Positions 17,941-40,219 of a DNA stretch of 64,000 bases are shown here, piece by piece (within the stretch, counting starts at the first letter, position 1; each line of letters opens with the position of its first letter). The notes under the pieces were generated by a model. It did no database searches. It was given only the letters and a program-made list of their open reading frames with translations, and was not told where the DNA came from. Both the position numbers and the translations under genes were made by a program. Source of the DNA: Labrenzia sp. 011 (GTDB lineage: Bacteria > Pseudomonadota > Alphaproteobacteria > Rhizobiales > Stappiaceae); the NCBI RefSeq assembly GCF_003075075.1, contig NZ_QCYM01000004.1:1-64000 (forward strand), given 5' to 3'.

Positions 17941-17953
17941 GAAAGGAAACACC

Positions 17954-23939: not shown

Positions 23940-23950
23940 CGGAGGCTCAG

Positions 23951-25566: not shown

Positions 25567-26115
25567 ATGACTGGGGAGGCTGGACGAGGTTTGGCCGCGG
25601 CAGGAGGAGAAACCGCCAGACTTGGAGCATTGGAAAACCCGCTGGACTTCCTGGCCGAAGATCATGCGCGCGAACGGGAGGTCTGCGCGCTGATCGACAG
25701 GCTGGCTGCCGGGGCAGCGGTCGATGACGGCGAGCGCCGCATGCTTCTGGCTTTCCTGAACGAACAATTGCCGCATCATCTCGCGGATGAGGACATCGAC
25801 CTCTTCCCCCTGATGCGGCAACGCTGCACGCCCGACGAGGACATTGATCGGGTGATCCGGCAGCTTCTCGCCGGACACGGGGCAACGCGCTCGGATGCGC
25901 CTGCCATAGCCGACCTGATCGAAGCCAAGGAAAGCGGGCAGGCGGCGTTTTCTTGGAAGATGCAGGTGCGGATGACAGAATTTGCGCGTCATGCGCGGCA
26001 GGACATGATCGTCGAAACCGCGATCATCCTGCCTCTGGCGCGTGCCCATCTGACCGGACACGATCTTGCGACACTGAAAACCCGCATGTTGCAGCGGCGC
26101 AACTCAGGGGCGTGA
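25567..26115 (+). CDS. Hemerythrin-like (HHE) domain protein
   Basis: 182 residues. Candidate di-iron ligands occur in order: FLAEDHARE, LPHHLADEDIDLFP, LLAGHGATRS, and FARHARQDMIVETAIILPLA, in line with the H...HxxxE...H...HxxxE pattern of HHE proteins. GGGAGG lies upstream of the ATG, and the gene is 15 bases after ppiC, so it closes the nar operon. Hemerythrin-like proteins bind O2 or NO or serve in Fe-S repair. Here NO detoxification or protection of the Fe-S-rich reductase is plausible but inferred. Confidence 0.85.
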   Translation: MTGEAGRGLAAAGGETARLGALENPLDFLAEDHAREREVCALIDRLAAGAAVDDGERRMLLAFLNEQLPHHLADEDIDLFPLMRQRCTPDEDIDRVIRQLLAGHGATRSDAPAIADLIEAKESGQAAFSWKMQVRMTEFARHARQDMIVETAIILPLARAHLTGHDLATLKTRMLQRRNSGA

Positions 26116-26435: not shown

Positions 26436-27458
26436 CTAGGCGAAGGAACGGGCGATGAGGTAGCTGACGGCGGTTATCACGAAAAGACTTCCGGTGATGC
26501 CTGAAAGCAGTCTGGGTCCCACTTTTAGCACCACACGCATATCTACGCTCAATCCAAGGCCGGTCATCGCGACGACGAAGAGAATATGGGATGCGCCTGA
26601 ACTCGCGTTACTGAGTGTGGCCGGAACAAAACCCAGATTGGCCATCAGGGCTGCAATTAGAAACCCGGGCACGAACCATGGCACGACCTTCATCAAGAAG
26701 ACCTGCGGCGCCGGTCTCCGGGGAGCCGGCTGCGCCCGGTTTCGCAACAGAACCGGGGCGATCAGCACGGCCGGGACCAGCATCAGGACCCGCAGCAGTT
26801 TTACTGTCGTGCCGATCTGGGCGCTGGCCAGGCTGACCGGCGCAGTTGCTGCCACCACTTGCGGCACGGCATAAACCGTCAGTCCGGCAAAGGTTCCGTA
26901 TTGGAAATCGGACAGGCTCAGGTAGGGGGCGAGATAGGGCAGTCCGATGACGAAGAGAACTCCCAGAATTGCACTGAAACTGATGGCCGCTGCGACGTCT
27001 TCATTGCGCGCCTTGATGGCGGGGGCCACGGCGGCGATGGCGGCATTTCCGCATATGGAATTCCCGCAGGCGACCAGAATGGCCATTTCCTCCCCGATCC
27101 CGACCGCGCGGCAAATCGTGAAACAGGCCAGGATCATCCCGAGAACCAGAAGAAAGACGATGCCGACGAGTTCCAGCCCGCTTTCAATGAGGCCGCTGAA
27201 GTCAACGGTAAATCCGAGCAGAATGACGGCAATTTCCAGGATGCCCGAGGAGCTCAACCGGATGCCTTTCTCGACGGAGCTGTTGAGATGGAAGGCCGAC
27301 CGGACGCAAATTCCAAGCAGGATCGCGCAGGTGAAGGGGTCCATGAACCGACTCCCGGCAAGCCACAGCTCAAGACGGTTGAGGCCAAGCGCGGCAGCCG
27401 CGAGCGAAACGCACAGAACAAGGCCTGGAAGGTGCTCTCGGCCCCTGATACGGTTCAT
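26436..27458 (-). CDS. UPF0324/YeiH family putative sulfate exporter
   Basis: 340 residues with about ten membrane helices. The CGNSICGNAAIAAVAPAIKA loop, GTFAGLTVYAVPQVVAA and the final GLGLSVDMR are the UPF0324 hallmarks. Family members are annotated as putative sulfate exporters because of links to sulfonate and taurine breakdown. Direct evidence for substrate is thin. The ATG overlaps the stop of the reductase gene fpr (ATGA). A sulfur-oxyanion exporter in one operon with ferredoxin and ferredoxin reductase, opposite an AprA-like enzyme, hints that this locus releases sulfite or sulfate. Confidence 0.88.
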   Translation of the reverse strand: MNRIRGREHLPGLVLCVSLAAAALGLNRLELWLAGSRFMDPFTCAILLGICVRSAFHLNSSVEKGIRLSSSGILEIAVILLGFTVDFSGLIESGLELVGIVFLLVLGMILACFTICRAVGIGEEMAILVACGNSICGNAAIAAVAPAIKARNEDVAAAISFSAILGVLFVIGLPYLAPYLSLSDFQYGTFAGLTVYAVPQVVAATAPVSLASAQIGTTVKLLRVLMLVPAVLIAPVLLRNRAQPAPRRPAPQVFLMKVVPWFVPGFLIAALMANLGFVPATLSNASSGASHILFVVAMTGLGLSVDMRVVLKVGPRLLSGITGSLFVITAVSYLIARSFA

Positions 27459-28270
27459 TCGGCGAAGGCACGTTCGATGACGAATTCTGCTGGACGGTTG
27501 TTGGCGCCCTCGGTCAGACCGGCCTTTTCAAGAAGGTTCTTGGTATCCTTGAGCATGGCGGCCGATCCGCAGATCATGCCCCGGTCCGTTTCCGGGTCGA
27601 GAGGCGGTACCTTCAGATCCGAATAGAGCTTGCCGCTTTCCATCAGGTCGGTGATGCGGCCCATGCAGGGATAGTCTTCGCGGGTGACGGAGGTGTAGTG
27701 CCGCAATTTGCCCACATCGACCAGTTCGTTCAGCATATCGTCCGCACGGATCGTCTCGACCAGCTGCTGTCCATACTTGAGCTCGGCCACCTCGCGGCAG
27801 GTGTGTGTCAGGATCAGTTCGTCGAACTTCTCGTAGGTCTCCGGATCGCGGATGAGACTGGCGAAGGGGGCAATACCGGTTCCGGTCGAGAACATGTAGA
27901 GCCTTTTTCCGGGGATCAGCGCGTCGTTGACTAGCGTGCCGGTGGGCTTGCGCCGCATCAGGATGGCATCGCCTGCCCCGATATTCTGAAGGAGCGAAGT
28001 CAGGGGCCCATCGGGGACCTTGATGGAGAAAAATTCGAGCTCCTCGTCCCAGGCCGGACTTGCAATAGAATAGGCGCGGTAAAGTGGCTTGCCGTCGATC
28101 ATCAGTCCAATCATCACGAATTCACCCGACCGGAACCGGAATTCGGACGGTCTGGTCATGCGAAAGCGGAACAGGTGGTCCGTGTAATGGGTGACTTCGG
28201 TCACCGTCTGCACAAAGGTTCCGGCGGGTGCGCAGGCGGACAGCTCTTCCGGGCGGGTCATGACATTCAT
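27455..28270 (-). CDS. fpr: Ferredoxin/flavodoxin-NADP+ reductase
   Basis: 271 residues. The FAD-binding signature RAYSIAS lies near residue 65, and the NADP-binding GTGIAPFASLIRDP and GSAAMLKDTKNLL follow, matching bacterial subclass I Fpr with C-terminal Glu. I chose the ATG at 28270, with TTGGAG 8 bases upstream. It is co-transcribed after the ferredoxin gene (47-base gap), so electrons probably move between NADPH, this enzyme and FdxA. From there they could go to or from the AprA-like module encoded on the other strand. Confidence 0.93.
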   Translation of the reverse strand: MNVMTRPEELSACAPAGTFVQTVTEVTHYTDHLFRFRMTRPSEFRFRSGEFVMIGLMIDGKPLYRAYSIASPAWDEELEFFSIKVPDGPLTSLLQNIGAGDAILMRRKPTGTLVNDALIPGKRLYMFSTGTGIAPFASLIRDPETYEKFDELILTHTCREVAELKYGQQLVETIRADDMLNELVDVGKLRHYTSVTREDYPCMGRITDLMESGKLYSDLKVPPLDPETDRGMICGSAAMLKDTKNLLEKAGLTEGANNRPAEFVIERAFAE

Positions 28271-28317
28271 GATCAAGGCTCCAACTAAAGATTTCCTGGG
28301 TCCGATTGACGGAGGCG

Positions 28318-28653
28318 TCAGACCGCTTCCACAACTGTTTCGCTCAAGAGGTCCAGCTTTCCCGGTTTTCCGTTCCATTCGTCGGCATCCGGGAGGGGCT
28401 CTATCCGCTCGGTAATCACCGGCCATTGCGCGGCAAGGCGGGCATTCAGCTCCAGCCACCTGGCCGCTTCCGGCTCCGTATCCGGCAGAATTGCTTCCGC
28501 CGGACATTCTGGCTCGCAGACGCCGCAGTCTATGCATTCGTCCGGATTGATGACGAGCATGTTCTCGCCCTCGTAGAAACAGTCGACTGGGCAGACCTCG
28601 ACGCAGTCCGTGTACTTGCACTTGATGCAGTTGTCGGTGACGACAAATGTCAT
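28318..28653 (-). CDS. fdxA: Seven-iron ferredoxin FdxA
   Basis: 111 residues with one 3Fe-4S and one 4Fe-4S site. The first motif is [21 protein letters not shown], and the second is [16 protein letters not shown]. The C-terminal extension with [13 protein letters not shown] is standard for FdxA. AGGAG lies 6 bases before the ATG. It heads the minus-strand operon fdxA-fpr-yeiH and is divergent from the DUF971 gene across a gap that contains a palindromic operator-like site. Confidence 0.94.
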
Positions 28654-28708
28654 TGCGAGCTCCTCTTGGATTTCCAGTAGCGCCAGTCATGGCGGCGAAT
28701 CCCGAAGC

Positions 28709-28730
28709 TGTCGGTCAACTAGTTGCTATT
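28709..28730. promoter_or_regulatory. Operator-like palindrome 1 (GTCGGTCAACTAGTTGC region)
   Basis: CAACTAGTTG at 28716-28725 is a perfect 10-bp palindrome in the divergent fdxA/DUF971 gap. Sixteen of 17 bases recur in inverted orientation near 29202-29218. It is a candidate site for the GntR-family regulator encoded 3.5 kb downstream. Confidence 0.55.
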
Positions 28731-28780
28731 GCGGATTTTGGCCGTGTGGTCAGCTGGTCCCAGCGAGAGAGGGACCTGCA

Positions 28781-29209
28781 ATGAAGACTGCTGAAATACA
28801 GCGGAATGATCCGCCGAGCCTGGACAACGGTGCTCGACCTGTGCCGCCACCGATCGAAGTCCGGCGGACATCCCAGAAAAAGGCCCTGGTCCTGACATGG
28901 GAGAACGGACAGGTATCGCAACTGTCCGCCCGGGTCCTGCGGGACAACAGCCAGTCTGCAGGCTCAAAGCGTCTGAGACTGCGTGGCCTGGATGTTCCTG
29001 CCTCGGATGACCTGACCATAGAGGCGATCAGACCCGTTGGTGCCTATGCACTCAATCTCGTTTTTTCGGATGGCCATGACCGGGGAATCTACCCCTGGTC
29101 GCTCCTGCGGGATCTCGTCGGCGGTGTGGAAACGCCCCCCACCGGCAAGGCGCCGGCAGTGGGCGCCGGACGCTTGCTGACGGTCGATGACTTTCTGATT
29201 GGCAATTAG
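28781..29209 (+). CDS. DUF971 (GBBH-like N-terminal) domain protein
   Basis: 142 residues. The DUF971 core spans about 30-120: LVLTWENGQVSQLSARVLR, then LTIEAIRPVGAYALNLVFSDGHDRGIYPWSLLRDL, which holds the diagnostic PVG-YA-FxDGHxxGIYxW pattern. The domain also occurs in gamma-butyrobetaine hydroxylases and beside Fe-S scaffold proteins. Free-standing copies have no defined reaction. GAGAGGGA lies about 7 bases before the ATG at 28781. It is the first gene of the plus-strand arm, 67 bases before the AprA-like gene. A role in Fe-S supply or maturation for that enzyme is an inference. Confidence 0.88.
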   Translation: MKTAEIQRNDPPSLDNGARPVPPPIEVRRTSQKKALVLTWENGQVSQLSARVLRDNSQSAGSKRLRLRGLDVPASDDLTIEAIRPVGAYALNLVFSDGHDRGIYPWSLLRDLVGGVETPPTGKAPAVGAGRLLTVDDFLIGN

Positions 29210-29220
29210 TTGACCGACCC
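29200..29220. promoter_or_regulatory. Operator-like palindrome 2 upstream of the AprA-like gene
   Basis: CAATTAGTTG at 29203-29212 followed by ACCGAC is the inverted copy of site 1, with one mismatch in the shared 17 bases. It overlaps the DUF971 stop codon and lies about 60 bases before the flavoprotein ATG. Confidence 0.55.
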
Positions 29221-29276
29221 TGTTCGGCATTTGGACCTAGCCTCGTTCTCAAAGGCAAATATTTCCGGAGACAGAT

Positions 29277-31013
29277 ATGGACGACCTTCGTGAAGGATTG
29301 AATGAAGTCGAATGCGATCTATTGGTGATCGGCGGCGGGACCGCGGGGCCGATGGCCGCCTACAGGGCGCGGAAGAAAAATCCGAATGCCAAGGTCATCC
29401 TGCTGGAAAAGGCCAACGTCAAGCGGTCCGGGGCCATTTCCATGGGTATGGACGGACTGAACAACGCGGTCATTCCCGGCCACTCCACACCGGAGCAATA
29501 TACCAAGGAAATCACCATCGCGAACGACGGTATCTGCGATCAGGCCGCTGTCTACAAGTACGCTCAGCAATGCTACTCGATCATCGAGGAACTGGACGGA
29601 TTCGGCATTCGTTTCCAGAAGGACGAAAACGGCGAGTACGACGTCAAGAAGGTTCACCATATGGGAACCTACGTCCTGCCAATGCCGAACGGCGATACGG
29701 TGAAAAAGGCGCTCTATCGGCAACTTCGCCGTGCCCGGGTGCTGATCTCCAACCGCTTCATGGCAACCCGTCTTCTGATCGGCAAAAGCGGTCGGGCCGC
29801 CGGAACGATCGCCGTCAATACCAGGACGGGCGAGTTTCTCGTCATCAAGGCAAAGGCGGTCATCATGTGCATGGGCGCCGCGGGGCGCCTGGGGCTGCCG
29901 ACGTCCGGTTATCTTTATGGCACATACGAGAACCCGACGAATTCCGGCGAAGGTTATGCGATGGCCTATCATGCGGGTGCGAAGCTGGCGAATCTCGAGT
30001 GCTTCCAGATCAATCCGCTGATCAAGGACTACAACGGCCCCGCCTGTGCCTATGTCGCCGGGCCGTTTGGTGGCTACACGGCCAACAGCAAGAACGAGCG
30101 CTTCATCGAGTGCGACTACTGGTCGGGCCAGATGATGCAGGAATTCTACAATGAACTGCAGTCCGGCAACGGGCCGGTCTTCCTCAAGCTCAATCACCTG
30201 CACAAGGATACGGCCGATCATATCGAGCACATCCTGCACACCGTGGAACGACCCAGCCGTGGCCGATTCCACGAGCAGCGCGGCACCAAATACTCCGAAA
30301 AGATGATCGAGATGCATATCTCCGAAATCGGCTTTTGTTCCGGTCATTCCGCGTCCGGCGTCTTCGTGGACGAGTTCGCACGCACTTCCGTTGCAGGGCT
30401 TTATGCGGCTGGAGACATGGCAAGTGTTCCGCACAACTACATGCTCGGCGCCTTCACCAATGGCGCAATCGCCGGCGAAGACGCGATCGACTTCGCAGAA
30501 GAAGTCGACTTCGATGACTTTGACAGCGAGGCCGTTGCGCTCGAGCGGGAACGGGTTCTCGCCCCGACCAGACGCGAGGACGGCATTCCGCCAAATCAGA
30601 TCGAATACAAGACTCGCCGCCTTGTGAATGACTATCTTCAGCCGCCCAAGGTGACCGCGAAATATGAACTTTGTCAGCAGCGTCTGGCGGAAATCAGGGA
30701 CGACCTGGAAAACCGCATGGTCGTCCGCGATGCTCACGAGCTGATGCGTTCCATGGAAGTCGCCAGCATTCTGGACTGTGCCGACATGGCGGCCTTTGCC
30801 TCGCTTTATCGCAAGGAGAGCCGCTGGGGGCTTTATCACTATCGTTCGGACTTTCCGGACTCCAATGACGAGGAGTGGAACTGCCACGTCATGCTGTCCA
30901 AGCAGAATGGCAGGATGACCTGCGAGAAACAGGCGGTTCAGCCTTACATCATCCCGATCGCGGACGATGAAAAGGATGCCTATTACAAGCAACGCATTAC
31001 GGCGCAGGCCTGA
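29277..31013 (+). CDS. AprA-like FAD-dependent oxidoreductase (adenylylsulfate/fumarate reductase family)
   Basis: 578 residues. The N-terminal FAD Rossmann motif is LLVIGGGTAGPMAAYRA (about 15-31), RSGAISMGMDGLN is the flavin loop, and GLYAAGDMASVPHNYMLGAFTNGAIAGEDA near residue 380 is the second FAD signature. The C-terminal helical part with RKESRWGLYHYRSDFP is typical of the Apr/Sdh flavoproteins. It is shorter than true AprA (about 640), and no sat or dissimilatory sulfite reductase gene is visible, so APS reduction is not assured. CCGGAG lies upstream of the ATG. The next gene is an AprB-like ferredoxin. Best call: the catalytic flavoprotein of an uncharacterised redox complex. Confidence 0.8.
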   Translation: MDDLREGLNEVECDLLVIGGGTAGPMAAYRARKKNPNAKVILLEKANVKRSGAISMGMDGLNNAVIPGHSTPEQYTKEITIANDGICDQAAVYKYAQQCYSIIEELDGFGIRFQKDENGEYDVKKVHHMGTYVLPMPNGDTVKKALYRQLRRARVLISNRFMATRLLIGKSGRAAGTIAVNTRTGEFLVIKAKAVIMCMGAAGRLGLPTSGYLYGTYENPTNSGEGYAMAYHAGAKLANLECFQINPLIKDYNGPACAYVAGPFGGYTANSKNERFIECDYWSGQMMQEFYNELQSGNGPVFLKLNHLHKDTADHIEHILHTVERPSRGRFHEQRGTKYSEKMIEMHISEIGFCSGHSASGVFVDEFARTSVAGLYAAGDMASVPHNYMLGAFTNGAIAGEDAIDFAEEVDFDDFDSEAVALERERVLAPTRREDGIPPNQIEYKTRRLVNDYLQPPKVTAKYELCQQRLAEIRDDLENRMVVRDAHELMRSMEVASILDCADMAAFASLYRKESRWGLYHYRSDFPDSNDEEWNCHVMLSKQNGRMTCEKQAVQPYIIPIADDEKDAYYKQRITAQA

Positions 31014-31043
31014 TCCCGGCGGAAGACAAGAAGGAGAAAGATA

Positions 31044-31277
31044 ATGCCTCTGGCAAACACCCCCACTTCGGTTCCGGTAGAGGTCGATGAAGGCAAGTGC
31101 ATCGCCGACAAGGGCTGCACCGTATGTGTCGATGTCTGCCCGCTCGACGTTCTGCGGATCAGTGACCTGACAGGCAAGGCCTACATGAAATACGACGAGT
31201 GCTGGTATTGCATGCCCTGTGAGGCGGACTGCCCGACCGACGCGGTTACCGTGAACATCCCGTATCTCCTGCGATAG
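31044..31277 (+). CDS. AprB-like two-cluster ferredoxin
   Basis: 77 residues. Eight cysteines bind two 4Fe-4S clusters: CIADKGCTVCVDVCP near the start and CWYCMPCEADCP near residue 55. The second motif resembles the CWEC/CxxC set of the AprB subunit. AprB's C-terminal tail, which wraps AprA, is missing, so docking must differ; the HEAT-repeat protein next door could fill that role. AAGGAGA lies 8 bases before the ATG. It is 30 bases after the flavoprotein gene and adjacent to the HEAT gene. Confidence 0.87.
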   Translation: MPLANTPTSVPVEVDEGKCIADKGCTVCVDVCPLDVLRISDLTGKAYMKYDECWYCMPCEADCPTDAVTVNIPYLLR

Positions 31278-31286
31278 GTGGACCTG

Positions 31287-32240
31287 ATGGTATTCGAACC
31301 TTTTGAGGAAGAAAGCGATTTCGAGGAACTGGCGGAACGTCTGGACGATCCGGATCCGGCCATACGCCGTGTGGCCGTGTTGAATCTTGCAGATACCGCT
31401 GATCCCGAGGCGATCACCCTGATTGCGAGAGCGATCTCGGATTCGAGTCCGGAAGTGCGCCTTCAGGCGGCAATTGCTCTTGGTGAATTCGATGGGCTGG
31501 AAGCGGCAGCGGCCCTGTGCGAAGCCCTGCAGGATGGTGACAGCGGTGTGTCCAGAGCGGCAGCGGACAGCCTGGCGGAGATCAAGGATCCGCACGCGGG
31601 CGAACCCATGCTGGCGTTGACGTCACACCAGGACCCGAAAGTGCGCGAGGGTGCCCTTCTGGGGCTGAAGCAATTGCGTCGCCCTGATGCCCTGGCAAAC
31701 GGCATCAAGGCAATGAATGACCCGGTTCCGGCAGTGCGCATTCAGGCGGTGGGTGTCGTCGGTTACCTGAAGGCCGAGGAGGCATTGCCAGCCCTGATTG
31801 CCGGATGCCGGGACGATGAACCGGAAGTCCGGCGGACGGCGGTTGGGGCTCTTGCCTTTTCGAAATCAGCCCATGCGGTTGAAGCGCTTGTCAATGCAAC
31901 AGCTGATGACAACTGGACCGTCCGGGAAATCGCTGCGGAAGTTCTCGGCAAGCAGGACTCGGGAACACGGGCTTCCGAACTGATGGGCCTGCTGGAGGAT
32001 CCATTCTGGCAGGTTCGGGTGAAGGCAGTGCGAAGTCTCGGGAAACTGCGCGTTTCGGCTGCCGTGGACAAGATCGCGACGCAACTTGACGAAACCGTCA
32101 GCAATCTGCGCAAGGAGGCTGCCGCGGCTCTTGGTGAAATTGCCGATCCGGCTGCATTGCCTTATCTGGAGAAGCTGGTCGATGACCCGGATCCCGATGT
32201 TCGAAAAAATGTACGTTGGGCATTGGGCCAAATAGGATAG
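31287..32240 (+). CDS. HEAT-repeat (PBS lyase-like) scaffold protein
   Basis: 317 residues made of about nine helical repeats of 30-31 residues. Examples: PAIRRVAVLNLAD, PEVRLQAAIALGE, PKVREGALLGLKQL, PEVRRTAVGALAF, PDVRKNVRWALGQIG. There is no signal peptide. Such repeats form curved binding scaffolds and also occur in phycobilin-lyase-like and Fe-S-enzyme partners. I chose the ATG at 31287 with GGTGG 5 bases upstream; a GTG at 31278, right after the ferredoxin stop, is the alternative. Strict linkage to the flavoprotein and ferredoxin suggests a third subunit or a maturation factor. Confidence 0.88.
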   Translation: MVFEPFEEESDFEELAERLDDPDPAIRRVAVLNLADTADPEAITLIARAISDSSPEVRLQAAIALGEFDGLEAAAALCEALQDGDSGVSRAAADSLAEIKDPHAGEPMLALTSHQDPKVREGALLGLKQLRRPDALANGIKAMNDPVPAVRIQAVGVVGYLKAEEALPALIAGCRDDEPEVRRTAVGALAFSKSAHAVEALVNATADDNWTVREIAAEVLGKQDSGTRASELMGLLEDPFWQVRVKAVRSLGKLRVSAAVDKIATQLDETVSNLRKEAAAALGEIADPAALPYLEKLVDDPDPDVRKNVRWALGQIG

Positions 32241-32241
32241 T

Positions 32242-32260
32242 ATTGCTGCAGAGCAGCAAT
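32242..32260. terminator. Hairpin after the HEAT gene, weak terminator or attenuator
   Basis: ATTGCTGC-AGA-GCAGCAAT is a perfect 8-bp stem directly after the stop codon and just upstream of the gntR ribosome site. No T tract follows, so partial attenuation or mRNA end protection is as likely as termination. Confidence 0.5.
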
Positions 32261-32288
32261 TCTGGAGAGGTTGCGGGAGAGGTCCATC

Positions 32289-33092
32289 TTGGCCGGATTG
32301 GTAAAAGGGAACGGAATTCAGGACGAGCCTGAATATGCGGCGCGCATTGAGAATTGCGCGGGTGCAGCGGGCTCTGCCGCCAATGCTCCCAAATACCAGA
32401 AAATCGGCCATGACCTGATGAAAACCATACTGTCGGGCGGCTTTCCGGCCGGCAGTTATCTTCCGAGCGAGAGTTCGTTGATGCGCACCTACGGTGTCAG
32501 TCGTGTCACGATTCGGCTGGCTCTTGACGTGCTGCGGGAAGCCAACCTGGTGGTGGGGCATCAGGGCAAGGGGTATTTCATCCGCAATCTGCAGGCGGTG
32601 CAGGATCTGGGTCGTCTCCAGGGGTTCGGAGAGCTGATGGCGCCTCTCGGGGTTGAAACCCGTTCCGAGGTGCTTTCAGGTGACTTCGTCGCAGCGCCAC
32701 CGGCGATCGCGACAGCGCTTGATCTGAAAAGAAATTCTGAAGTGGTGAAAATCCGGCGGCTCAGAATTGCTGCGGACGAGACCATGTCACTCGACGTCAG
32801 CTATTTCCCGAAAGACCTGGGGGCGGTGCTGCTGGAGCAGGATCTGGCGAATGTCGACGTGTTCACCCTCATCGAGAGCAATCTTGGTATTGAAATCGGT
32901 TTTGCCGACATTTCCATGACCGTGGTGCCGGCGGAGAGCGACGTTCAAAGGCAGCTCAACATGCAGCCCGGAGAGAGCGTGATCCGCATTGAACGCCTGA
33001 CGTTCAGCGCTGCCGGGCGTCCGATCGATTTTGAATATCTGTATGTCCGTCCGGAAAGTTACAAGTTCAAGGTCAGGGTTCCGAGATGGTGA
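32289..33092 (+). CDS. GntR family regulator, HutC/UTRA type
   Basis: 267 residues from a TTG with GGGAGAGG 6 bases upstream. The winged HTH spans about 35-100 with GSYLPSESSLMRTYGVSRVTIRLALDVLREANLV, followed by a UTRA ligand domain (about 115-260; ERLTFSAAGRPIDFEYLYVRP at the end). UTRA regulators usually repress until a small pathway ligand binds. It sits between the redox genes and the ABC importer. The two inverted GTCGGTCAACTARTTGC sites are its likely targets. Ligand unknown. Confidence 0.9.
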   Translation: MAGLVKGNGIQDEPEYAARIENCAGAAGSAANAPKYQKIGHDLMKTILSGGFPAGSYLPSESSLMRTYGVSRVTIRLALDVLREANLVVGHQGKGYFIRNLQAVQDLGRLQGFGELMAPLGVETRSEVLSGDFVAAPPAIATALDLKRNSEVVKIRRLRIAADETMSLDVSYFPKDLGAVLLEQDLANVDVFTLIESNLGIEIGFADISMTVVPAESDVQRQLNMQPGESVIRIERLTFSAAGRPIDFEYLYVRPESYKFKVRVPRW

Positions 33093-33348
33093 GGCTGAAG
33101 AGTCCGTTCTTGTAGCCAGGATGCGGGGCGGACGGGTTCAGAACTTTCTTGGTCGGACAGCTCTCTCCGGAAGTTGATAACATTATTTACTTGTAAGGCT
33201 CGGAGTTTAATGACTCCGGGCCGTTGCTTGTTCTCGGGCAGCTTCAAGAATTTCCCTGATAATAACTTTTCTTGGCGTGACTTGTATTAGGTCTTTCCGA
33301 TATTTTGTGTTTATTGTGGTGGCAGTTGCTTGTTTGCTGAGCGAGTGA

Positions 33349-33371
33349 GCATGCCCGGTTTTGCGGCATGC
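33349..33371. promoter_or_regulatory. Inverted repeat, possible enhancer site for a sigma-54 activator
   Basis: GCATGCC and GGCATGC flank nine bases. The repeat lies about 120 bases upstream of the predicted sigma-54 start, the usual distance for an upstream activator sequence. Confidence 0.45.
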
Positions 33372-33452
33372 ATTTTCTGGAAATATTTTTCTGTCAATCA
33401 ACATAAGTAAAAACAATGACTTATTAGTTTTTTGGATCTGTTTCCCGCGGAA

Positions 33453-33468
33453 TTGGCACGCTGCTTGC
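33453..33468 (+). promoter_or_regulatory. Sigma-54 promoter, TTGGCACGCTGCTTGC
   Basis: This matches the -24/-12 consensus YTGGCACG-N4-TTGC, with GG and GC exactly ten bases apart. A start near 33480 gives a leader of about 38 bases before the binding-protein ATG at 33518. Confidence 0.85.
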
Positions 33469-33517
33469 GCATAAATGTTCGTCCTGAGATAGGCGGCAAA
33501 CATTGAGGGGAATGATC

Positions 33518-34894
33518 ATGAAACTTGCAAAACTTGCTCTAGGTTTAGGGTTGGGCCTGACGACGGCCCTATCGAGTTTCTCTGCTTTGGCAGAAACGAT
33601 TACCATTGGCATCGGTCATCAGAGCACCGTCACGAACACGGTGCCTGGAGGCATCATTCTTGAGAAACTGGAACTTCTGCAAAAGCATCTGCCCACGACC
33701 GGAAAGTATGCCGACGCCGAGTATGAGGTCATCTACAAGGATTACACGTCCGGCCCTCCGATCACCAACCAGATGCTGGCCGGAAAGCTGGCCTTCGGTG
33801 TCATGGGTGACTACCCGTTGATCGTCAACGGGGCGAAATTCGAAGAGAGTGGATCGGAAGAAAGTCGGTTCATCGCCATCACAGGCTACAATCTCAAAGG
33901 GACGGGCAATGGTATCGTCGTGCCGGTTTCTTCAGATGTCTATTCCATCGACCAGCTGGCCGGCAAATCCGTGTCCACGCCAGTCGGCAGTGCGGCCTGG
34001 GGAATGTTGCTGAAGGTCCTTCGTGACAACGACCTGACCGACAAGGTCACCGTGGTCAACCAGTCACCGCCGGTCGGGGTCAACAACATCGCCCAGGGCA
34101 AGATCGGCGCGCATATCGATTTCTGTCCCTGGTCGGAAGTGATGGAGTTCCGTGGAACGGGCCGCAAGATCTACGACGGCAGCGAGGCTGGCATTCCAAC
34201 GTTCCATGGTACGGTTGTCGCAACGAGCTTTGCGGAAAAGTACCCGGAAATCGTCCAGGCCTATGTCGATGCGACACTTGAAGCTCAGGAATGGATCGCC
34301 GCGGACCCGGTAACCGCTGCCGTCAAGGTTTCGGAATGGACGGGGATCGAGAAGGAAGTCCTGTATCTCTACTTCTCCAAGGGGGGCATCTCGACCTTCG
34401 AGGCATCCGTGAAGCCGCAATGGGTTGATGCCCTGAAGTACGACCACGACTTGCTGGTCAAGGAAAAGGGCATCCCGCCGCTGACTTTCGACAAGTGGGT
34501 CGACGAAACCTATGTCAAGGCTGCCTATGCCGCCAAGGGCGTGGATTACGACACGCTTGCCGCGACGGTTGTCGACACGAAAGAGGCCAATGTCGGCCTG
34601 CCGGTGGAGTTCTGGCACCCGCGTGACGGCATTCAGCAGTTCCAGACAATATCCGAGATGCTGAACGCCATCGCCGAGGTTGGAAACACGGGCTTCAAGC
34701 TCAATGCAATCTATGTCTACGACAAGCCGAGCGGCCTGAAACTCTTCGGCAACACCGCATTCTTCGTCAAATTCGGCGCGGACGAATATGCAGCCTTCAT
34801 GCGCAAGGGGGATGCAGACGCCTTCGCCGCGGAAGCCGAAGGCGAGGTTCTCGACCTGCCGACCGCGGTCGCTGCGTACGTTCCGACCGAATAA
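33518..34894 (+). CDS. ABC transporter periplasmic substrate-binding protein (NitT/TauT class, long form)
   Basis: 458 residues, about 120 longer than common SsuA/TauA proteins. The signal peptide is MKLAKLALGLGLG to ALAE, cleaved near residue 24. The core TITIGIGHQSTVTN and DQLAGKSVSTPVGSAAWGML fit the NMT1/SsuA fold. The extra C-terminal part (about 330-458; VGLPVEFWHPRDGIQQFQ) is not one I recognise. I chose the ATG at 33518 with AGGGGA 6 bases upstream. Transcription from the sigma-54 promoter means the importer needs an enhancer-binding activator. The ligand may be a sulfonate or another nitrogen/sulfur compound, not determinable here. Confidence 0.87.
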   Translation: MKLAKLALGLGLGLTTALSSFSALAETITIGIGHQSTVTNTVPGGIILEKLELLQKHLPTTGKYADAEYEVIYKDYTSGPPITNQMLAGKLAFGVMGDYPLIVNGAKFEESGSEESRFIAITGYNLKGTGNGIVVPVSSDVYSIDQLAGKSVSTPVGSAAWGMLLKVLRDNDLTDKVTVVNQSPPVGVNNIAQGKIGAHIDFCPWSEVMEFRGTGRKIYDGSEAGIPTFHGTVVATSFAEKYPEIVQAYVDATLEAQEWIAADPVTAAVKVSEWTGIEKEVLYLYFSKGGISTFEASVKPQWVDALKYDHDLLVKEKGIPPLTFDKWVDETYVKAAYAAKGVDYDTLAATVVDTKEANVGLPVEFWHPRDGIQQFQTISEMLNAIAEVGNTGFKLNAIYVYDKPSGLKLFGNTAFFVKFGADEYAAFMRKGDADAFAAEAEGEVLDLPTAVAAYVPTE

Positions 34895-34905
34895 CAATGA
34901 CACCA

Positions 34906-34933
34906 GGGATGCCGGGCTTTCGGCATCCCTTTT
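34906..34933 (+). terminator. Terminator/attenuator after the binding-protein gene
   Basis: GGGATGCCG-GGCTTT-CGGCATCCC is followed by four T. It lies inside the importer operon and probably lowers permease and ATPase expression relative to the binding protein. Confidence 0.8.
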
Positions 34934-34982
34934 CGCCTGCAGCCGCACCGTTGGCGCATCGTGGCATCGAGGGAGAATGAGA

Positions 34983-35927
34983 ATGACCATCAGTGGACAG
35001 AGTTCCAGTGCGTTGAAGGACGATCAAACGCCGCTCTCTGAACAGTCCTCCACACAGACAGAACAAGACGCCGGTGTTGCGGACGTGACCATCAACCGGA
35101 ACCTGAACGAGGTTCTTCCTATCCGGAATGTCTTCGCATCTGCGGTGGCGATCATCAGGAAGCATGCTCTGCAGACGAGCATCAGCGTGATGTCCCTGGT
35201 CGTTGGAGTATATCTCTGGCATCTGGCCACGGCCTACAAGGTCGACCTGTACATCAACTTCCAGAATGTTCCGCCTCCGCTGAAAGTCTGGTCGGCGTTT
35301 TGGACCCATATGGGCCAGGCGGACTTCTACATTCACATGGCGGTTTCGATGCAACGCATCCTGACAGCCTATCTGACGGCAGCCGTTCTGGGCATCGTCA
35401 TCGGCGTTCTCATGGGGCGTTCGAGGATCGCCCGGTCAGTGGTCTACCCCTATATCGAGATTCTGCGTCCGATTCCGGCCGTCGCCTGGATTCCTCTCGC
35501 CATCCTCATGTGGCCAACGGAAGAGGGGTCGATCGTGTTCATCACGTTATTGGGGGCATTGTTTCCGATTATCCTGAATACGCTTCACGGCGTCGAGCAG
35601 ACCCCGGAAGTGCTCGTGCGCGCGGCAAAATCCCTGGGGGCCTCCAGGCTTCAGATCTTCCGGCATGTCATCCTGCCGGCTGCACTGCCATCAATTTCCG
35701 CGGGGCTTGCCATCGGGATGGGTGTGAGCTGGTTCTCGCTTCTGGCCGGCGAGATCATCTCGGGTCAATACGGCATCGGCTATTTCACTTGGGACGCCTA
35801 TTCCCTGATCAACTTTCCCGACATCGTTGTCGGCATGTTGGTGATCGGCTGTCTCGGTACGCTTTCGACCTACGCCGTCAGGCTGGCGATGAAACCCTTT
35901 TTGGCATGGCAGAAGCGGTCACGCTGA
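34983..35927 (+). CDS. ABC transporter permease (NitT/TauT class)
   Basis: 314 residues. There is a hydrophilic N-terminal tail of about 60 residues, then six membrane segments. The coupling loop is AAKSLGASRLQIFRHVILPAALPSI, followed by SWFSLLAGEIISGQYGIGY, both characteristic of SsuC/TauC. GGGAGA lies upstream of the ATG at 34983; an ATG six bases earlier is possible. It works with the preceding binding protein and following ATPase. The long tail is unusual but has no recognised motif. Confidence 0.9.
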   Translation: MTISGQSSSALKDDQTPLSEQSSTQTEQDAGVADVTINRNLNEVLPIRNVFASAVAIIRKHALQTSISVMSLVVGVYLWHLATAYKVDLYINFQNVPPPLKVWSAFWTHMGQADFYIHMAVSMQRILTAYLTAAVLGIVIGVLMGRSRIARSVVYPYIEILRPIPAVAWIPLAILMWPTEEGSIVFITLLGALFPIILNTLHGVEQTPEVLVRAAKSLGASRLQIFRHVILPAALPSISAGLAIGMGVSWFSLLAGEIISGQYGIGYFTWDAYSLINFPDIVVGMLVIGCLGTLSTYAVRLAMKPFLAWQKRSR

Positions 35928-35998
35928 CCGGACACGCGCCCATCCGGTCAGGCTCCAGTCATGTCAACAATTCTCAACTGTTCAGAGAGGGGACAGTC

Positions 35999-36853
35999 AT
36001 GAACACCCAGGTCGTCAATTTGAAGGAACACATCAATCCCAGGGACGGGCACCCGAAGAGTCCGGGTAGCGGTCATATCGTGATCGAAGATGTCGAGATC
36101 ACTTTCGGCGCGGGCGCGGAACGGAACCATGCGGTGACGCGGACAAGTCTCGATATCAAACCCGGAGAGTTCGTTTGCATCCTCGGACCGTCCGGTTGCG
36201 GCAAATCCACCCTGCTCAACAGCATCGCGGGTTATGTCAGCCCGACCCACGGCAATGTGAGTGTCGATGACAGGAAGGTCGTGGGGCCAGGGCCGGACAG
36301 GGGAATGGTCTTCCAGCAATATTCCCTGTTTCCGTGGAAAACTATCCGCGACAACATTGCCTTCGGACCTAAGGTGGCTGGCCGCAGCACGGTGGAATGC
36401 GGCTCCATTGCGAACACCTTTCTGGAAATGGTGGGTCTGACAAAATTCGCCAACAAATATCCCGCCGAACTGTCCGGCGGCATGCAGCAGCGTGTCGGCA
36501 TTGCCCGGGCGCTCGCCAATTATCCTTCTGTCCTGTTGATGGATGAACCCTTCGGTGCGCTCGATGCCCAGACACGTCTGGTCATGCAGGAAAACCTCCT
36601 GAACATCTGGGCGGATTTCGGGATTACCGTCGTCTTCGTCACCCACGACGTGGACGAGGCGATCTTTCTAGCCGACCGCGTTTTGATCATGAGCGCCAGC
36701 CCGGGGTCCGTGATTGCGGATCTGGAAGTGCCTCTGCCCCGCCCCCGGGATCCGGCCATGGCAATCTCGGAGGATTTTCTGGAGCTCAAGAAACTCTGCC
36801 TGGAGCGGATCAGGGCGGAAAGCACGAGGGCATTCGAGCAGCAGAATTCGTAA
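35999..36853 (+). CDS. ABC transporter ATP-binding protein (NitT/TauT class)
   Basis: 284 residues. Walker A is GPSGCGKST, the Q-loop lies in MVFQQYSLFPWKT, the signature is LSGGMQQR, Walker B is VLLMDEPFGALD, and the switch His lies in FVTHDVDEAIFLADR. The first 30 residues before the core are extra. GAGGGGA lies 8 bases before the ATG at 35999, which is 71 bases after the permease gene. It energises the importer whose genes precede it. Confidence 0.93.
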   Translation: MNTQVVNLKEHINPRDGHPKSPGSGHIVIEDVEITFGAGAERNHAVTRTSLDIKPGEFVCILGPSGCGKSTLLNSIAGYVSPTHGNVSVDDRKVVGPGPDRGMVFQQYSLFPWKTIRDNIAFGPKVAGRSTVECGSIANTFLEMVGLTKFANKYPAELSGGMQQRVGIARALANYPSVLLMDEPFGALDAQTRLVMQENLLNIWADFGITVVFVTHDVDEAIFLADRVLIMSASPGSVIADLEVPLPRPRDPAMAISEDFLELKKLCLERIRAESTRAFEQQNS

Positions 36854-36895
36854 TTGGGTCAATCAGAATTTTCAACCGGACGCGATGAGGGACGC

Positions 36896-37660
36896 ATGAA
36901 ACATATGTTGGCAGAAACCTCCACTTCTTCCAGGATGGATGCAGGCGAGCGCGACCGGGTTTCGGCGGTCTATTTGAGCGAGGAACTGGGCGATCTGGAC
37001 GAAGGTGCAAATTTCCTGAACCGTCTCTCAGGTGCCGAATTGGAAGCCGCTTGCGCTGCCGGCAGTTCGTGCTCCTTTTCAAAGGGGGAGGGCGTGTTTT
37101 TCCAAGGAGACCAACACAACGGAATCTGGTTGATCGAGGAGGGAGCAGTGCGCACCTTCTATGTCGGGCCGTCGGGCCGGGAGATCACCCTGGCCTATTG
37201 GACGCCGGGTCACTTTATCGGCGGGCCGGAGGTGTTCGGCGGCGGGACACATATGTGGTCCGCTGATGCCCAGACGGATTCCCGTCTTCTCTATCTTACC
37301 GGCAGCAGCATCCGCCGGCTCGTGGATACCATTCCAAGCTTCGCGGTTTGCCTCATCAACGGCCTTGTCGCCAAGGGCAAATGCTATTCCGCGCTTGTGC
37401 AGATGCTGGGGACGCGCTCCGTCACCGAGCGCCTGGCCCAGCTGCTGATCATCCTGGGCGATACGCACGGACGACAGGAGGGTAACAGGCTGCTGATTGA
37501 ACGAAAGATTACCCACGAACATCTGGCAACCATCGTCGGCTCCACCCGCCAGTGGGTAACGATGACCCTCGACAAGTTTCAGAAAAAGGGACTGATCACG
37601 ATTGGGCGCTCACAGATCCGGATCGAGAACTACGAAATGCTCCAGAGCATGGCCTCCTGA
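36896..37660 (+). CDS. Crp/Fnr family regulator closing the importer operon
   Basis: 254 residues. The effector barrel spans about 40-150 (GEGVFFQGDQHNGIWLIEEGAVRTFYVGPSGREITLAYWTPGHFIGGPEVF), with a dimer helix and a C-terminal HTH with ITHEHLATIVGSTRQWVTMTLDKFQ. Cysteines do not form the FNR N-terminal cluster motif. The ATG at 36896 has GAGGGA three bases upstream, so the next ATG at 36905 is a fair alternative. It follows the ATPase by 42 bases with no terminator, so it is likely co-expressed and pathway-specific. Effector unknown. Confidence 0.87.
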   Translation: MKHMLAETSTSSRMDAGERDRVSAVYLSEELGDLDEGANFLNRLSGAELEAACAAGSSCSFSKGEGVFFQGDQHNGIWLIEEGAVRTFYVGPSGREITLAYWTPGHFIGGPEVFGGGTHMWSADAQTDSRLLYLTGSSIRRLVDTIPSFAVCLINGLVAKGKCYSALVQMLGTRSVTERLAQLLIILGDTHGRQEGNRLLIERKITHEHLATIVGSTRQWVTMTLDKFQKKGLITIGRSQIRIENYEMLQSMAS

Positions 37661-37851
37661 TCGCCGGTCGCGTTCGGGGCGGCAATTGTGGTGGGGTTAT
37701 GCCGATGGCTTGTTGGGATACCCGGCCCTTCTCGATGCTGCCGGCCGTCCCCCCGACAATCTCCGGCATCATAAAAAGAATTAGATAATCCCGATCCAGC
37801 AGGTATCGTGCTCCTCAGGTTTTCGGCTGATACCTTGAGGGAACGAATGTG

Positions 37852-38679
37852 ATGCAAGACTTTGTCCGGGCGATATTGGCAACGGCCATCCTGTTATCGC
37901 CATATGCCGGCGTTGCAACGGCGGAGGAAATGCCGCTTTTCGATGCGCATATCCATTACAGTCACGATGCGGTCAAACAGGTGCCGCCTCGTCAGGCGGC
38001 CAAGATCCTCCGCGACGCCGGGATAAGGAAAGCGCTTGTTTCGAGTTCCGACGATGACGGCACCCAGAAGCTCCATGAAGCGGCCCCGGATATCGTTGTG
38101 CCATCGCTGCGTCCCTACCGCCGCCGCGGCGAGACGCGTACGTGGGTGGATGACGAGAGCGTCATTGCCTACATCGAGGACCGTCTCTCGAGGTTCAAGT
38201 ACAAGGCCATCGGAGAATTCCATGCCTATGGGAGCGATATCGACAAACCTGTCGTTCAGCGCATGATTGCCCTCGCGAAGGAAAACGGTCTTCTGCTTCA
38301 TGCGCATTCGGATGCGGATGCGATCGATCGCATTTTCAGCACCTGGCCCGGGGCGAAGGTGCTCTGGGCGCATTCCGGCTTCGAGTCTGCGGAGGAGGTC
38401 GGACAGATGTTGGGCAAACACGAAAATCTCTGGAGTGATCTCGCTTTCCGCTCCGAGCACGGCAGTGGCGGCTCGGTGCCTGCCAACTGGCGCGCGGTGT
38501 TTGAGGCGTTTCCGGAACGTTTCATGATCGGAACGGACACATTTGCCCCGGAGCGCTGGTACTACATCAAGTCGCACGCGGATTTCTCCCGCGCCTGGCT
38601 GAAGGATCTGCCACAGGATCTGGCCCGGAACATCGGGTACAGCAACGCGGAACGCATGCTGGAGGCCGTGGGCCAGTGA
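37852..38679 (+). CDS. Exported amidohydrolase-superfamily protein
   Basis: 275 residues. A signal peptide (about residues 1-25, ending AGVATAEE) is followed by a metal-dependent TIM-barrel hydrolase: PLFDAHIHYS is the first metal site, LLLHAHSDADA and LWAHSGFES give later histidines, and RFMIGTDTFAPERW gives the acidic site. These match the amidohydrolase-2-type fold. The substrate is unknown. The stop overlaps the next start (GTGA). It heads a three-gene set with a FixH-like protein and a di-heme peroxidase, all exported. Confidence 0.83.
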   Translation: MQDFVRAILATAILLSPYAGVATAEEMPLFDAHIHYSHDAVKQVPPRQAAKILRDAGIRKALVSSSDDDGTQKLHEAAPDIVVPSLRPYRRRGETRTWVDDESVIAYIEDRLSRFKYKAIGEFHAYGSDIDKPVVQRMIALAKENGLLLHAHSDADAIDRIFSTWPGAKVLWAHSGFESAEEVGQMLGKHENLWSDLAFRSEHGSGGSVPANWRAVFEAFPERFMIGTDTFAPERWYYIKSHADFSRAWLKDLPQDLARNIGYSNAERMLEAVGQ

Positions 38680-39083
38680 GGAAGCGGGTCTGTCTTGCCG
38701 TCTGTCTTGCGATGGCCGTGCCGGCCTGTGCGCAGGCCGACTGTCCCGTGCCCGAAGGCTGGCTTGCCCTGCAGCCTGTCGGGGCGTCGGATGCGGTCGT
38801 TGCCGTTCAGCTGCCCTCAACGCCATTGCCGGTTGGAGAGCTGTTCGATATCGAGGTCAGCGTGTGCGATCCGCAGGACGGAAACCTGCCGCTTGCGAGG
38901 GCGGATGCCATGATGCCGGCGCACAGGCACGGAATGAACTATCGCCCCGAGATTGCGGGCCATGGTCCAAACCTTCATACGGTCAAGGGATTCATGTTTC
39001 ACATGCCGGGAGCCTGGCAGATCAGCATTGAGCTGGGGGCGGTCGAACGGCAGCGTTTCGTTCTGGGCGTGACGGCGGAATGA
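38676..39083 (+). CDS. FixH/YtkA-like periplasmic protein
   Basis: 135 residues starting with GTG. A signal peptide runs to about residue 22 (AVPACAQA), followed by a single Ig-like beta domain. The ADAMMPAHRHGMNYRPE region and the later GFMFHMPGAWQISIEL are typical of FixH/YtkA-like domains, with His/Met residues that could bind copper. It overlaps both neighbours by four bases, so all three proteins are made together. Function unproven; a metal or partner role for the di-heme enzyme is plausible. Confidence 0.75.
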   Translation: MRKRVCLAVCLAMAVPACAQADCPVPEGWLALQPVGASDAVVAVQLPSTPLPVGELFDIEVSVCDPQDGNLPLARADAMMPAHRHGMNYRPEIAGHGPNLHTVKGFMFHMPGAWQISIELGAVERQRFVLGVTAE

Positions 39084-40219
39084 TCAGGTTTCGCCGTCTT
39101 CTGGCGGGCTTGCTGCTCTTCCTTGGTGCCGGCGCTGCAGGGGCGCAGGGCGTTCTGCTGGATCAGGGGGAAATTGACGCCGCCTTGTTGCACGGTCCGT
39201 GGCCGCCCCCCCGGACCGGCGACCCGAGCAACCGGGTTTCCGGCATCCCCGAGGCCATCGAGCTTGGCAGGATCCTGTTTTCAAGCCCGGCTCTGTCGTC
39301 CGGTGGCCGGCTCAGTTGCGCCAGTTGCCACGATCCTGACAACGGCTTCACGGACGGGCTCGAAACGGCAAGATCGCATGTCGGGCGGCTTGACCGGAAC
39401 ACGCAGGGTCTTTTCAATCTGGCAGGCATGCGCTGGTTCGGCTGGGACGGGCGCAGCGACAGTCTCTGGGCACAAAGCCTGTTGCCGATCATCCGCAGCG
39501 ACGAGATGGCGCTCGATGTCGGCCAGATTGCGGACGCGCTGCAAGACGGACCGCTCCGCGAGCGCTATGAGGGCTTGTTCGGGCCGGCTGACAGTCAGGC
39601 GCCTGACCGGAATCTGGCAAATGTCGGCAAGGCGCTCGCCGCCTATATCGAAACGATCACGACCGGCAAGACACCTTTCGACAGGTTCCGGGATGCCCTG
39701 GAGGCCGGAGACCTGGAGGCTGCGGCCGCTTATCCGGAGGACGCCCAGCGTGGCTTCAGGATTTTTGCAGGCAAGGGCAAATGCACCTTCTGTCATGTCG
39801 GACCGTTGTTTTCCAACAGCGAATTTCACGATGCCGGTGTTCCCTATTTCGTCGAACCCACGCGGGTCGACACGGGGCGTCACGGCGGTATCGAGGCGCT
39901 TCTCGGCAGCCGGTTTACCTTGAGAGGCGCGTTTTCCGACGATCCGGCCAAGACGGGCGCATGGAAAGTGGAGCGACTGGTGCGGTCTCACGACGATTTC
40001 GGAACGTTTCGAACCCCGAGCCTGCGCGAGCTCACCAGGACCGCTCCATACATGCACAACGGCAGCCTTGCGACGTTACGCGATGTGGTGAACCATTACT
40101 CCACCATCGATCTGGAACGCATGCATACGGACGGCGAGGCAATTCTCGAGCCGCTGGATCTGTCAGAGCGGGAGACCGCCGATCTGGTTGCATTTCTGGA
40201 AAGCCTGTCCACACGGTAA
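39080..40219 (+). CDS. Di-heme cytochrome c peroxidase (MauG/CcpA family)
   Basis: 379 residues. The signal peptide ends near AAGAQG. Two c-heme sites are CASCH (about residue 83) and CTFCH (about 235), and the late APYMHNGSLATLRDVV loop is the family signature. It is a periplasmic enzyme that could reduce peroxide or modify a protein partner as MauG does. It is translationally coupled to the FixH-like protein. No methylamine dehydrogenase genes are present, so a MauG role is not supported. Confidence 0.9.
   Translation: MIRFRRLLAGLLLFLGAGAAGAQGVLLDQGEIDAALLHGPWPPPRTGDPSNRVSGIPEAIELGRILFSSPALSSGGRLSCASCHDPDNGFTDGLETARSHVGRLDRNTQGLFNLAGMRWFGWDGRSDSLWAQSLLPIIRSDEMALDVGQIADALQDGPLRERYEGLFGPADSQAPDRNLANVGKALAAYIETITTGKTPFDRFRDALEAGDLEAAAAYPEDAQRGFRIFAGKGKCTFCHVGPLFSNSEFHDAGVPYFVEPTRVDTGRHGGIEALLGSRFTLRGAFSDDPAKTGAWKVERLVRSHDDFGTFRTPSLRELTRTAPYMHNGSLATLRDVVNHYSTIDLERMHTDGEAILEPLDLSERETADLVAFLESLSTR

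Follow-up and report, generated by a model that had tools for sequence, protein, structure and literature searches.

Several described systems lie close to the genes considered here. AsfA/AsfB, a reductase/ferredoxin pair, is required for aromatic desulfonation according to the accessible text of PMC4267179, and the asfRAB genes are placed on the CH34 megaplasmid in that of PMC2864759. In Acinetobacter baumannii, the genes A1S_1717-1722 code for a GntR regulator, a flavoprotein of the type treated below, a 4Fe-4S protein and the binding protein, permease and ATPase of an ATP-binding cassette (ABC) transporter; in the accessible part of this 2026 study they are reported to be co-transcribed, activated by GntR and included in the OxyR regulon, the gntR and permease mutants are sensitive to hydrogen peroxide, antimicrobial and motility phenotypes are described, and the authors name the operon an ABC efflux system (PMC13104710). 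Here we describe a locus of twelve genes at positions 26436-37660 of the window, the whole 64,000-nucleotide stretch analysed, from Labrenzia sp. 011 (contig NZ_QCYM01000004.1; genome size 5.1 Mb), which joins a flavin adenine dinucleotide (FAD) flavoprotein, FLAV, to a small ferredoxin, FER, a HEAT-repeat protein and an importer. The gene set is a real, conserved module, beyond chance, and biochemically uncharacterised. Tentatively, and holding it to be somewhat short of probable, we read it as an uptake-plus-reduction system, in which a ferredoxin-driven reductase of the type of the adenylylsulfate (APS) reductase AprBA would act on an imported sulfonate-like anion, with a predicted substrate and a presumed chemistry.

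Gene content and distribution of the module

An earlier reading of the letters alone (the original prediction) had proposed this gene content, and it is borne out: all twelve genes are open, intact and backed by family matches, and lie at or near where that reading had placed them. The genes are arranged divergently: the minus strand carries those for the YeiH-like protein, Fpr and FdxA, the plus strand those from the DUF971 protein through Crp. The profile scans omitted the first 12 residues of Fpr and the first 4 of the ATPase.

26436..27458, minus strand: YeiH-like membrane protein (PF03601 215 bits, over its cut-off; TIGR00698 139 bits, below the cut-off of 232.6), possible sulfur-oxyanion exporter and optional part of the module
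27455..28270, minus strand: Fpr-like ferredoxin-NADP reductase, likely start ATG at 28270 (NF008178 137 bits against a cut-off of 390)
28318..28653, minus strand: FdxA, 7Fe-type ferredoxin (NF045490 174 bits, cut-off 135)
28781..29209, plus strand: DUF971 protein, likely start 28781 (PF06155 74 bits), probable Fe-S maturation helper
29277..31013, plus strand: FLAV, 578-amino-acid FAD flavoprotein and AprA relative, sole conserved candidate for a catalytic subunit in the cluster
31044..31277, plus strand: FER, 77-amino-acid 2[4Fe-4S] ferredoxin corresponding to the AprB core, CWYC motif
31278..32240, plus strand: HEAT-repeat protein (PF13646 190 bits), probable structural subunit
32271..33092, plus strand: GntR/UTRA regulator (family match), an open frame whose true start may be later
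33503..34894, plus strand: periplasmic binding protein (NMT1), SsuA/TauA-like fold with a C-terminal NosL-like domain of about 100 amino acids
34977..35927, plus strand: ABC permease of the NitT/TauT type (PF00528)
35999..36853, plus strand: ABC ATPase, likely start 35999 (PF00005)
36854..37660, plus strand: Crp/Fnr-family regulator (profile match)

When one genome per species was scanned, at least 589 stretches with a FLAV relative came up, where two patterns can match one gene. Genes within 9 kb of FLAV were counted in 93 neighbourhoods (the best 80 of the at least 589 stretches, 12 annotated plasmid loci and the window), and since many of the 80 belong to Bradyrhizobium and some contigs are short, these counts are indicative only. 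FER was found in 93/93 loci, HEAT as a separate gene in 92 and DUF971 in 75; the binding protein, permease and ATPase of the importer in 82, 80 and 82; Crp in 56 and a GntR match in 36; Fpr in 45, FdxA in 28 and YeiH in 27. Among the 71 loci with full flanks, the figures are 71 for FER, 70 for HEAT and 63 for the binding protein. The order is kept as well: 90 of the 93 loci have FER at most 250 bases 3' of FLAV on its strand, and 73 have HEAT likewise 3' of FER. The sole locus without a separate HEAT gene is that of Tsukamurella, whose FLAV carries HEAT repeats as a C-terminal extension, a fusion which argues that both proteins act as a single complex. Hosts of the module are found among alpha-, beta- and gammaproteobacteria, Acidithiobacillus, cyanobacteria and actinobacteria; E. 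coli genomes gave no DNA match.

The neighbourhood search for the trio of flavoprotein, ferredoxin and HEAT protein, proposed at the outset, brought out a conserved module that mostly includes the importer. A trio split from both YeiH and the importer had been named as evidence to the contrary: YeiH is indeed often absent, the importer seldom so. YeiH is linked to the module only in part of the loci (27/93, against 0/40 random 20-kb stretches), which weakens its claim to be a core part. Calling the system undescribed was strictly too much, as NCBI models for FLAV (NF006131) and for the FLAV-HEAT fusion (NF010374) already exist and the genetics of the A. baumannii operon were published in 2026; for its biochemistry the word stands. 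In a literature search for the gene set, whose coverage mostly left subscription papers aside, PMC13104710 was the sole operon study found; the accessible parts of PMC8557817 and PMC7661421 contain nothing on the FLAV family, and in that of PMC3758355 the ferredoxin A1S_1719 is listed as expressed in biofilm only.

Judged by its sequence, FLAV is a discrete family. Relatives over the NF006131 cut-off occur in 21 of 398 genomes drawn from the phylum, the window's own included, and when 232 plasmid records are ranked, full-length matches in the best 60 are 54-78% identical to the window's protein before identity drops to 27%. With 90-92% identity in FLAV, Labrenzia alba, Stappia sp. BW2 and a strain recorded under Rhodobacterales provide the closest named loci among the matches listed.

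FLAV and FER in relation to sulfur-nucleotide reductases

FLAV scores 1054 bits with NF006131 (cut-off 587), and stays below the cut-offs of the aprA model TIGR02061 (158 bits against 641.75) and of the APS-reductase-type model NF005331 (278 against 557); FER reaches 31 bits with the aprB model TIGR02060 (cut-off 136). The best match of FLAV in both sequence and fold is the 3'-phosphoadenylylsulfate (PAPS) reductase of Methanothermococcus thermolithotrophicus (8a8o), at 25-27% identity. In a tree of 13 FLAV, six AprA, two SdhA and two CH34 rows, FLAV clusters with AprA against the two SdhA rows with support 99/99 (the FLAV of locus L095 was omitted from set A2 because its frame ends early). 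The plasmid records examined annotate FLAV as fumarate reductase/succinate dehydrogenase, an assignment for which this placement apart from SdhA gives no support; no SdhB/FrdB-type subunit or membrane anchor was seen among the operon genes scanned, the Fe-S partner being FER.

The substrate site tells a different story from the overall kinship. In 13/13 FLAV rows the active-site arginine of AprA is replaced by leucine (Leu248), the tryptophan by tyrosine (Tyr217), and the APS loop is exchanged; arginine and tryptophan are retained in 6/6 AprA rows. We take these residues and those of the APS loop to have the active-site roles commonly ascribed to them in AprA. For Gln145, the role is that given in PMC10322725. 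The active-site histidine is kept (H357 in 13/13 rows), and despite this, the loss of arginine, tryptophan and loop argues that FLAV is not an APS reductase; no AprA over its cut-off was found in the window's genome. As for FER, the motif CW(Y/F)C is present in 93/93 loci, and CWEC in seven AprB-like frames adjoining AprA genes (7/8 loci gave such a frame). These frames have 140-186 amino acids against the 77 of FER, from which the C-terminal tail of AprB is absent, so that the short flavoprotein and missing tail remarked upon earlier hold. Taken together, the comparison supports FLAV/FER as a relative of AprBA without the APS site. A firm grouping with a characterised enzyme of a different pathway, which had been thought to speak against the original prediction, did not emerge: FLAV joins the AprA branch and does not share its substrate site.

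Identity of FLAV with AsfA was considered and rejected, as the CH34 megaplasmid holds no NF006131 member over the cut-off. Rmet_4334 was located at about 932 kb by interpolation between citrate synthase genes, and the probable AsfB/AsfA pair of C. metallidurans CH34 (Rmet_4334/5; L051:9882-11863), a flavoprotein with a 111-amino-acid 2[4Fe-4S] ferredoxin, lies at 928-930 kb, near a fatty-acid-desaturase-family gene and frames that by eye resemble ABC transporters. Two other megaplasmid flavoproteins with iron-sulfur frames nearby, at 896-897 kb and 794-795 kb, are larger and farther from the expected site. Since no LysR gene was seen directly adjoining the 928-kb pair, its assignment is likely, not certain. 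FLAV is 22% identical to this probable AsfA over part of its length, and the latter falls outside the AprA-FLAV group in the tree; AsfA/AsfB would seem to be a parallel pair, only distantly related to FLAV/FER.

Importer, electron donors and proposed function

The direction of the reaction is best addressed by the donor genes. An Nfn-like fusion occurs in five loci (Acidithiobacillus caldus and four beta-proteobacterial ones), always with FdxA and never with Fpr; that of the A. caldus plasmid cluster has 1153 amino acids (L043:10574-14035). Its parts match both subunits of NfnI, an NADH-dependent ferredoxin:NADP oxidoreductase, as well as GltD-like models, and by its C-terminal part it falls into the broad reductase group that includes Fpr, the two enzymes being differently built. 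The replacement of one ferredoxin:NADP-type enzyme by another speaks more strongly than anything else for a complex that receives its electrons from ferredoxin, i.e. reduces its substrate, and it lends support to the ferredoxin/NADPH link of the original prediction. An Mrp-type ATPase is joined to a DUF971 domain within one protein in HCF101, a carrier of plants, and both cyanobacterial clusters (n=2) encode an Mrp/NUBPL Fe-S carrier while a DUF971 match was found in neither; DUF971 is therefore probably a cluster-loading helper.

The binding protein has SsuA and TauA as its top fold matches and scores below the cut-offs of both (90.6 against 163.5 for SsuA, 61.1 against 304 for TauA). The fold supports an importer of the sulfonate/taurine type, as which it had been predicted to act, the ligand itself being a prediction. 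Alignments covered 26 of 30 listed sequences (A3) and ten C-termini (A4), six of which were scanned; the VIA-align rows hardly covered the C-terminal domain. With the NosL model PF05573 (cut-off 24 bits), the window's protein reaches 20.2 and that of L116 25.4, three others lie at 17-22 and one gave no match, and in the domain (34592-34891) no cysteine, methionine or histidine is invariant among ten sequences. It seems that an SsuA/TauA-like fold and a NosL-like domain devoid of evident metal ligands are fused in this protein. Taking this domain as a sign of N2O reductase finds no support in the window's genome, where a search of limited sensitivity gave no NosL match; that search also missed the domain of the binding protein itself.

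Gene content and its conservation, the kinship with AprBA, the loss of the APS site, the alternative donor genes and the importer fold are what the proposed function builds on. The binding-protein-dependent importer would take up a small anion, for which a sulfonate or a related organosulfur compound is the likeliest candidate. Fpr, or the Nfn-like enzyme, would oxidise NADPH and pass electrons via FdxA to FER, whose cluster may hand them on, past the tryptophan conserved in CWxC, to the FAD of FLAV, where the substrate would be reduced. Judged from APS and PAPS reductases, sulfite would be the likely product, to be used by sulfite reductase or, at high flux, exported via YeiH or exporters of the TauE type. 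HEAT would hold FLAV and FER together in place of the missing AprB tail, and DUF971 (in cyanobacteria, Mrp) would assist the loading of the [4Fe-4S] clusters. The earlier interpretation is partly supported by all this: its core survives in modified form, with YeiH as an optional part and with substrate and product as predictions. A bolder version, which we consider doubtful, would make FLAV-FER-HEAT a sulfite-releasing reductase of the AprBA type, the third kind of these: a desulfonase that cleaves imported sulfonates reductively, independently of oxygen and with electrons from NADPH, forming a major overlooked organosulfur route in soil, plant-associated, marine and cyanobacterial bacteria. 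If the main reading is right, an enzyme of the APS reductase superfamily would have been recruited, with its own importer and donors, to free organic sulfur, perhaps even in the absence of oxygen, in many bacteria of soil, root nodules and the sea and in methylotrophs, and the published 'efflux pump' of Acinetobacter would become a nutrient importer. The module is a defined gene set and as such testable on sulfonates.

Several observations weigh against the proposed function. Neither Fpr, the Nfn-like enzyme nor FdxA is found in the available stretch of 41/93 loci. Bicarbonate and nitrate proteins follow about 1-3 Z units below SsuA in the fold comparison, the nearest tying with TauA. AprA joins among the FLAV rows by a branch that the program marks as perhaps a long-branch artefact, which makes its exact position relative to FLAV unreliable; with the active-site arginine lost, AprA chemistry is not simply transferable either, and in the predicted model of FLAV the catalytic region is of low confidence (predicted local distance difference test score below 50 for residues 55-61 and 207-220). 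Organosulfur genes and exporters are enriched near FLAV (23 loci against 40 control stretches), with small numbers and with reference genes and thresholds chosen by the analyst; for this set 47/80 loci were removed at 90% identity or more, 23 of the 33 left had at least 20 kb and were used, and the controls came from ten FLAV-bearing genomes different from those of the test loci. Copper-handling genes stand within the operon in marine alphaproteobacteria. The A. baumannii operon is, in the accessible text, induced by hydrogen peroxide and its mutants are peroxide-sensitive, which does not in itself point to sulfur (PMC13104710).

How far do other explanations account for the same facts? FLAV-FER may be an electron-transfer arm, as proposed for AsfA/AsfB, feeding a desulfonating oxygenase encoded elsewhere. 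We regard this as unlikely, although aromatic desulfonation offers a precedent for such a reductase/ferredoxin pair (accessible text of PMC4267179) and the probable CH34 counterpart, likewise a flavoprotein with a 2[4Fe-4S] ferredoxin, lies near ABC-transporter-like frames. LLM or TauD genes are close to FLAV in some loci, but none of the oxygenase types searched is conserved near FLAV across the 93 loci, luciferase-family genes in the window's genome number two, and FLAV, so distant from the probable AsfA, groups with AprA, a catalytic subunit. The named module hosts, which we take to be mostly aerobes or facultative organisms, count in favour of an oxygenase. It is similarly improbable that the substrate is no organosulfur compound at all and instead a nitrogen oxyanion, some other small anion or something copper-related, as the NosL-like domain and neighbours such as SCO1, PCuAC and the MbnH-like protein might suggest; against this speak the top fold matches, the enrichment of organosulfur genes and exporters, the NosL-like domain without invariant cysteine, methionine or histidine, the genome search of limited sensitivity without a NosL match, and the confinement of copper-gene clusters to 7-10/93 loci.

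A periplasmic binding protein with a NitT/TauT-type permease forms the architecture of an importer, and it is hardly to be expected that the module is an ABC efflux and oxidative-stress system. The mutant phenotypes speak for such a role, and the gene order of L046 with its adjoining chromate transporter matches the A. baumannii operon in the accessible text; there, however, FLAV and FER are given no role (PMC13104710), and a lost supply of thiol sulfur would equally give peroxide sensitivity. Very improbable, too, is an APS, PAPS or sulfite-oxidising enzyme, i.e. AprBA in a new context: the closest homologues and the retained histidine column favour it, but the columns of arginine and tryptophan differ throughout, as does the APS loop, the score lies far under the aprA cut-off, the AprB tail is missing and a dedicated importer would be superfluous for adenylated sulfur. 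Ferredoxin-driven reduction of an imported sulfonate-like anion is therefore the reading we retain.

Some further observations concern the surroundings. In the marine loci (operon regions L058:17156-20534, L095:16918-20366, L097:15463-18666 and L110:16689-20158), SCO1, PCuAC and cytochrome c genes apparently lie between the ATPase and Crp (one member per cluster scanned), and an open frame for a predicted membrane protein of 227-267 amino acids stands between permease and ATPase, three of which were scanned without a Pfam match. Downstream of the operon, at 37849-40219, follow an Amidohydrolase-2 gene, a weakly YtkA-like protein of 135 amino acids that stays below the cut-off, and a di-heme protein resembling MauG/MbnH. 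Upstream, at 17891-24685, open frames resemble a nitrate reductase region (judged by eye, no model test), and between this region and the operon lie a 374-amino-acid frame of parvulin-like look and then a hemerythrin-domain protein (25567-26115). Between FdxA and FLAV, neither FNR-type boxes nor shared palindromes were found in the window, nor a convincing common site in 15 relatives.

Comparison with known systems

AprBA shares with FLAV/FER the combination of FAD flavoprotein and 2[4Fe-4S] ferredoxin, the CWxC motif and a common tree group, and the histidine, asparagine and PH positions as well as the C-terminal R-x-E-[ST]-R-W signature of AprA are largely retained in FLAV; FLAV/FER differs in its extra HEAT protein, its own importer and the ferredoxin-NADP-type donors nearby. 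The PAPS reductase of M. thermolithotrophicus represents an assimilatory use of an AprBA-type enzyme, as proposed here for FLAV/FER, but sits with ATP sulfurylase and APS kinase whereas FLAV/FER sits with an importer (PMC10322725), and its beta subunit chain has 104 residues against the 77 of FER. AsfA/AsfB resembles FLAV/FER as a flavoprotein with a 2[4Fe-4S] ferredoxin and in its sulfonate context in the literature. SsuABC and TauABC are like the module's importer in the fold of the binding protein and the type of transporter, but the module's binding protein carries the NosL-like C-terminal domain, and neither SsuD nor TauD is among the twelve genes. The A. baumannii operon, finally, is apparently orthologous to the module, matched by gene order and names including L046, where HEAT and DUF971 genes follow outside the authors' six-gene unit, both proteins being unmentioned in the accessible text (PMC13104710).

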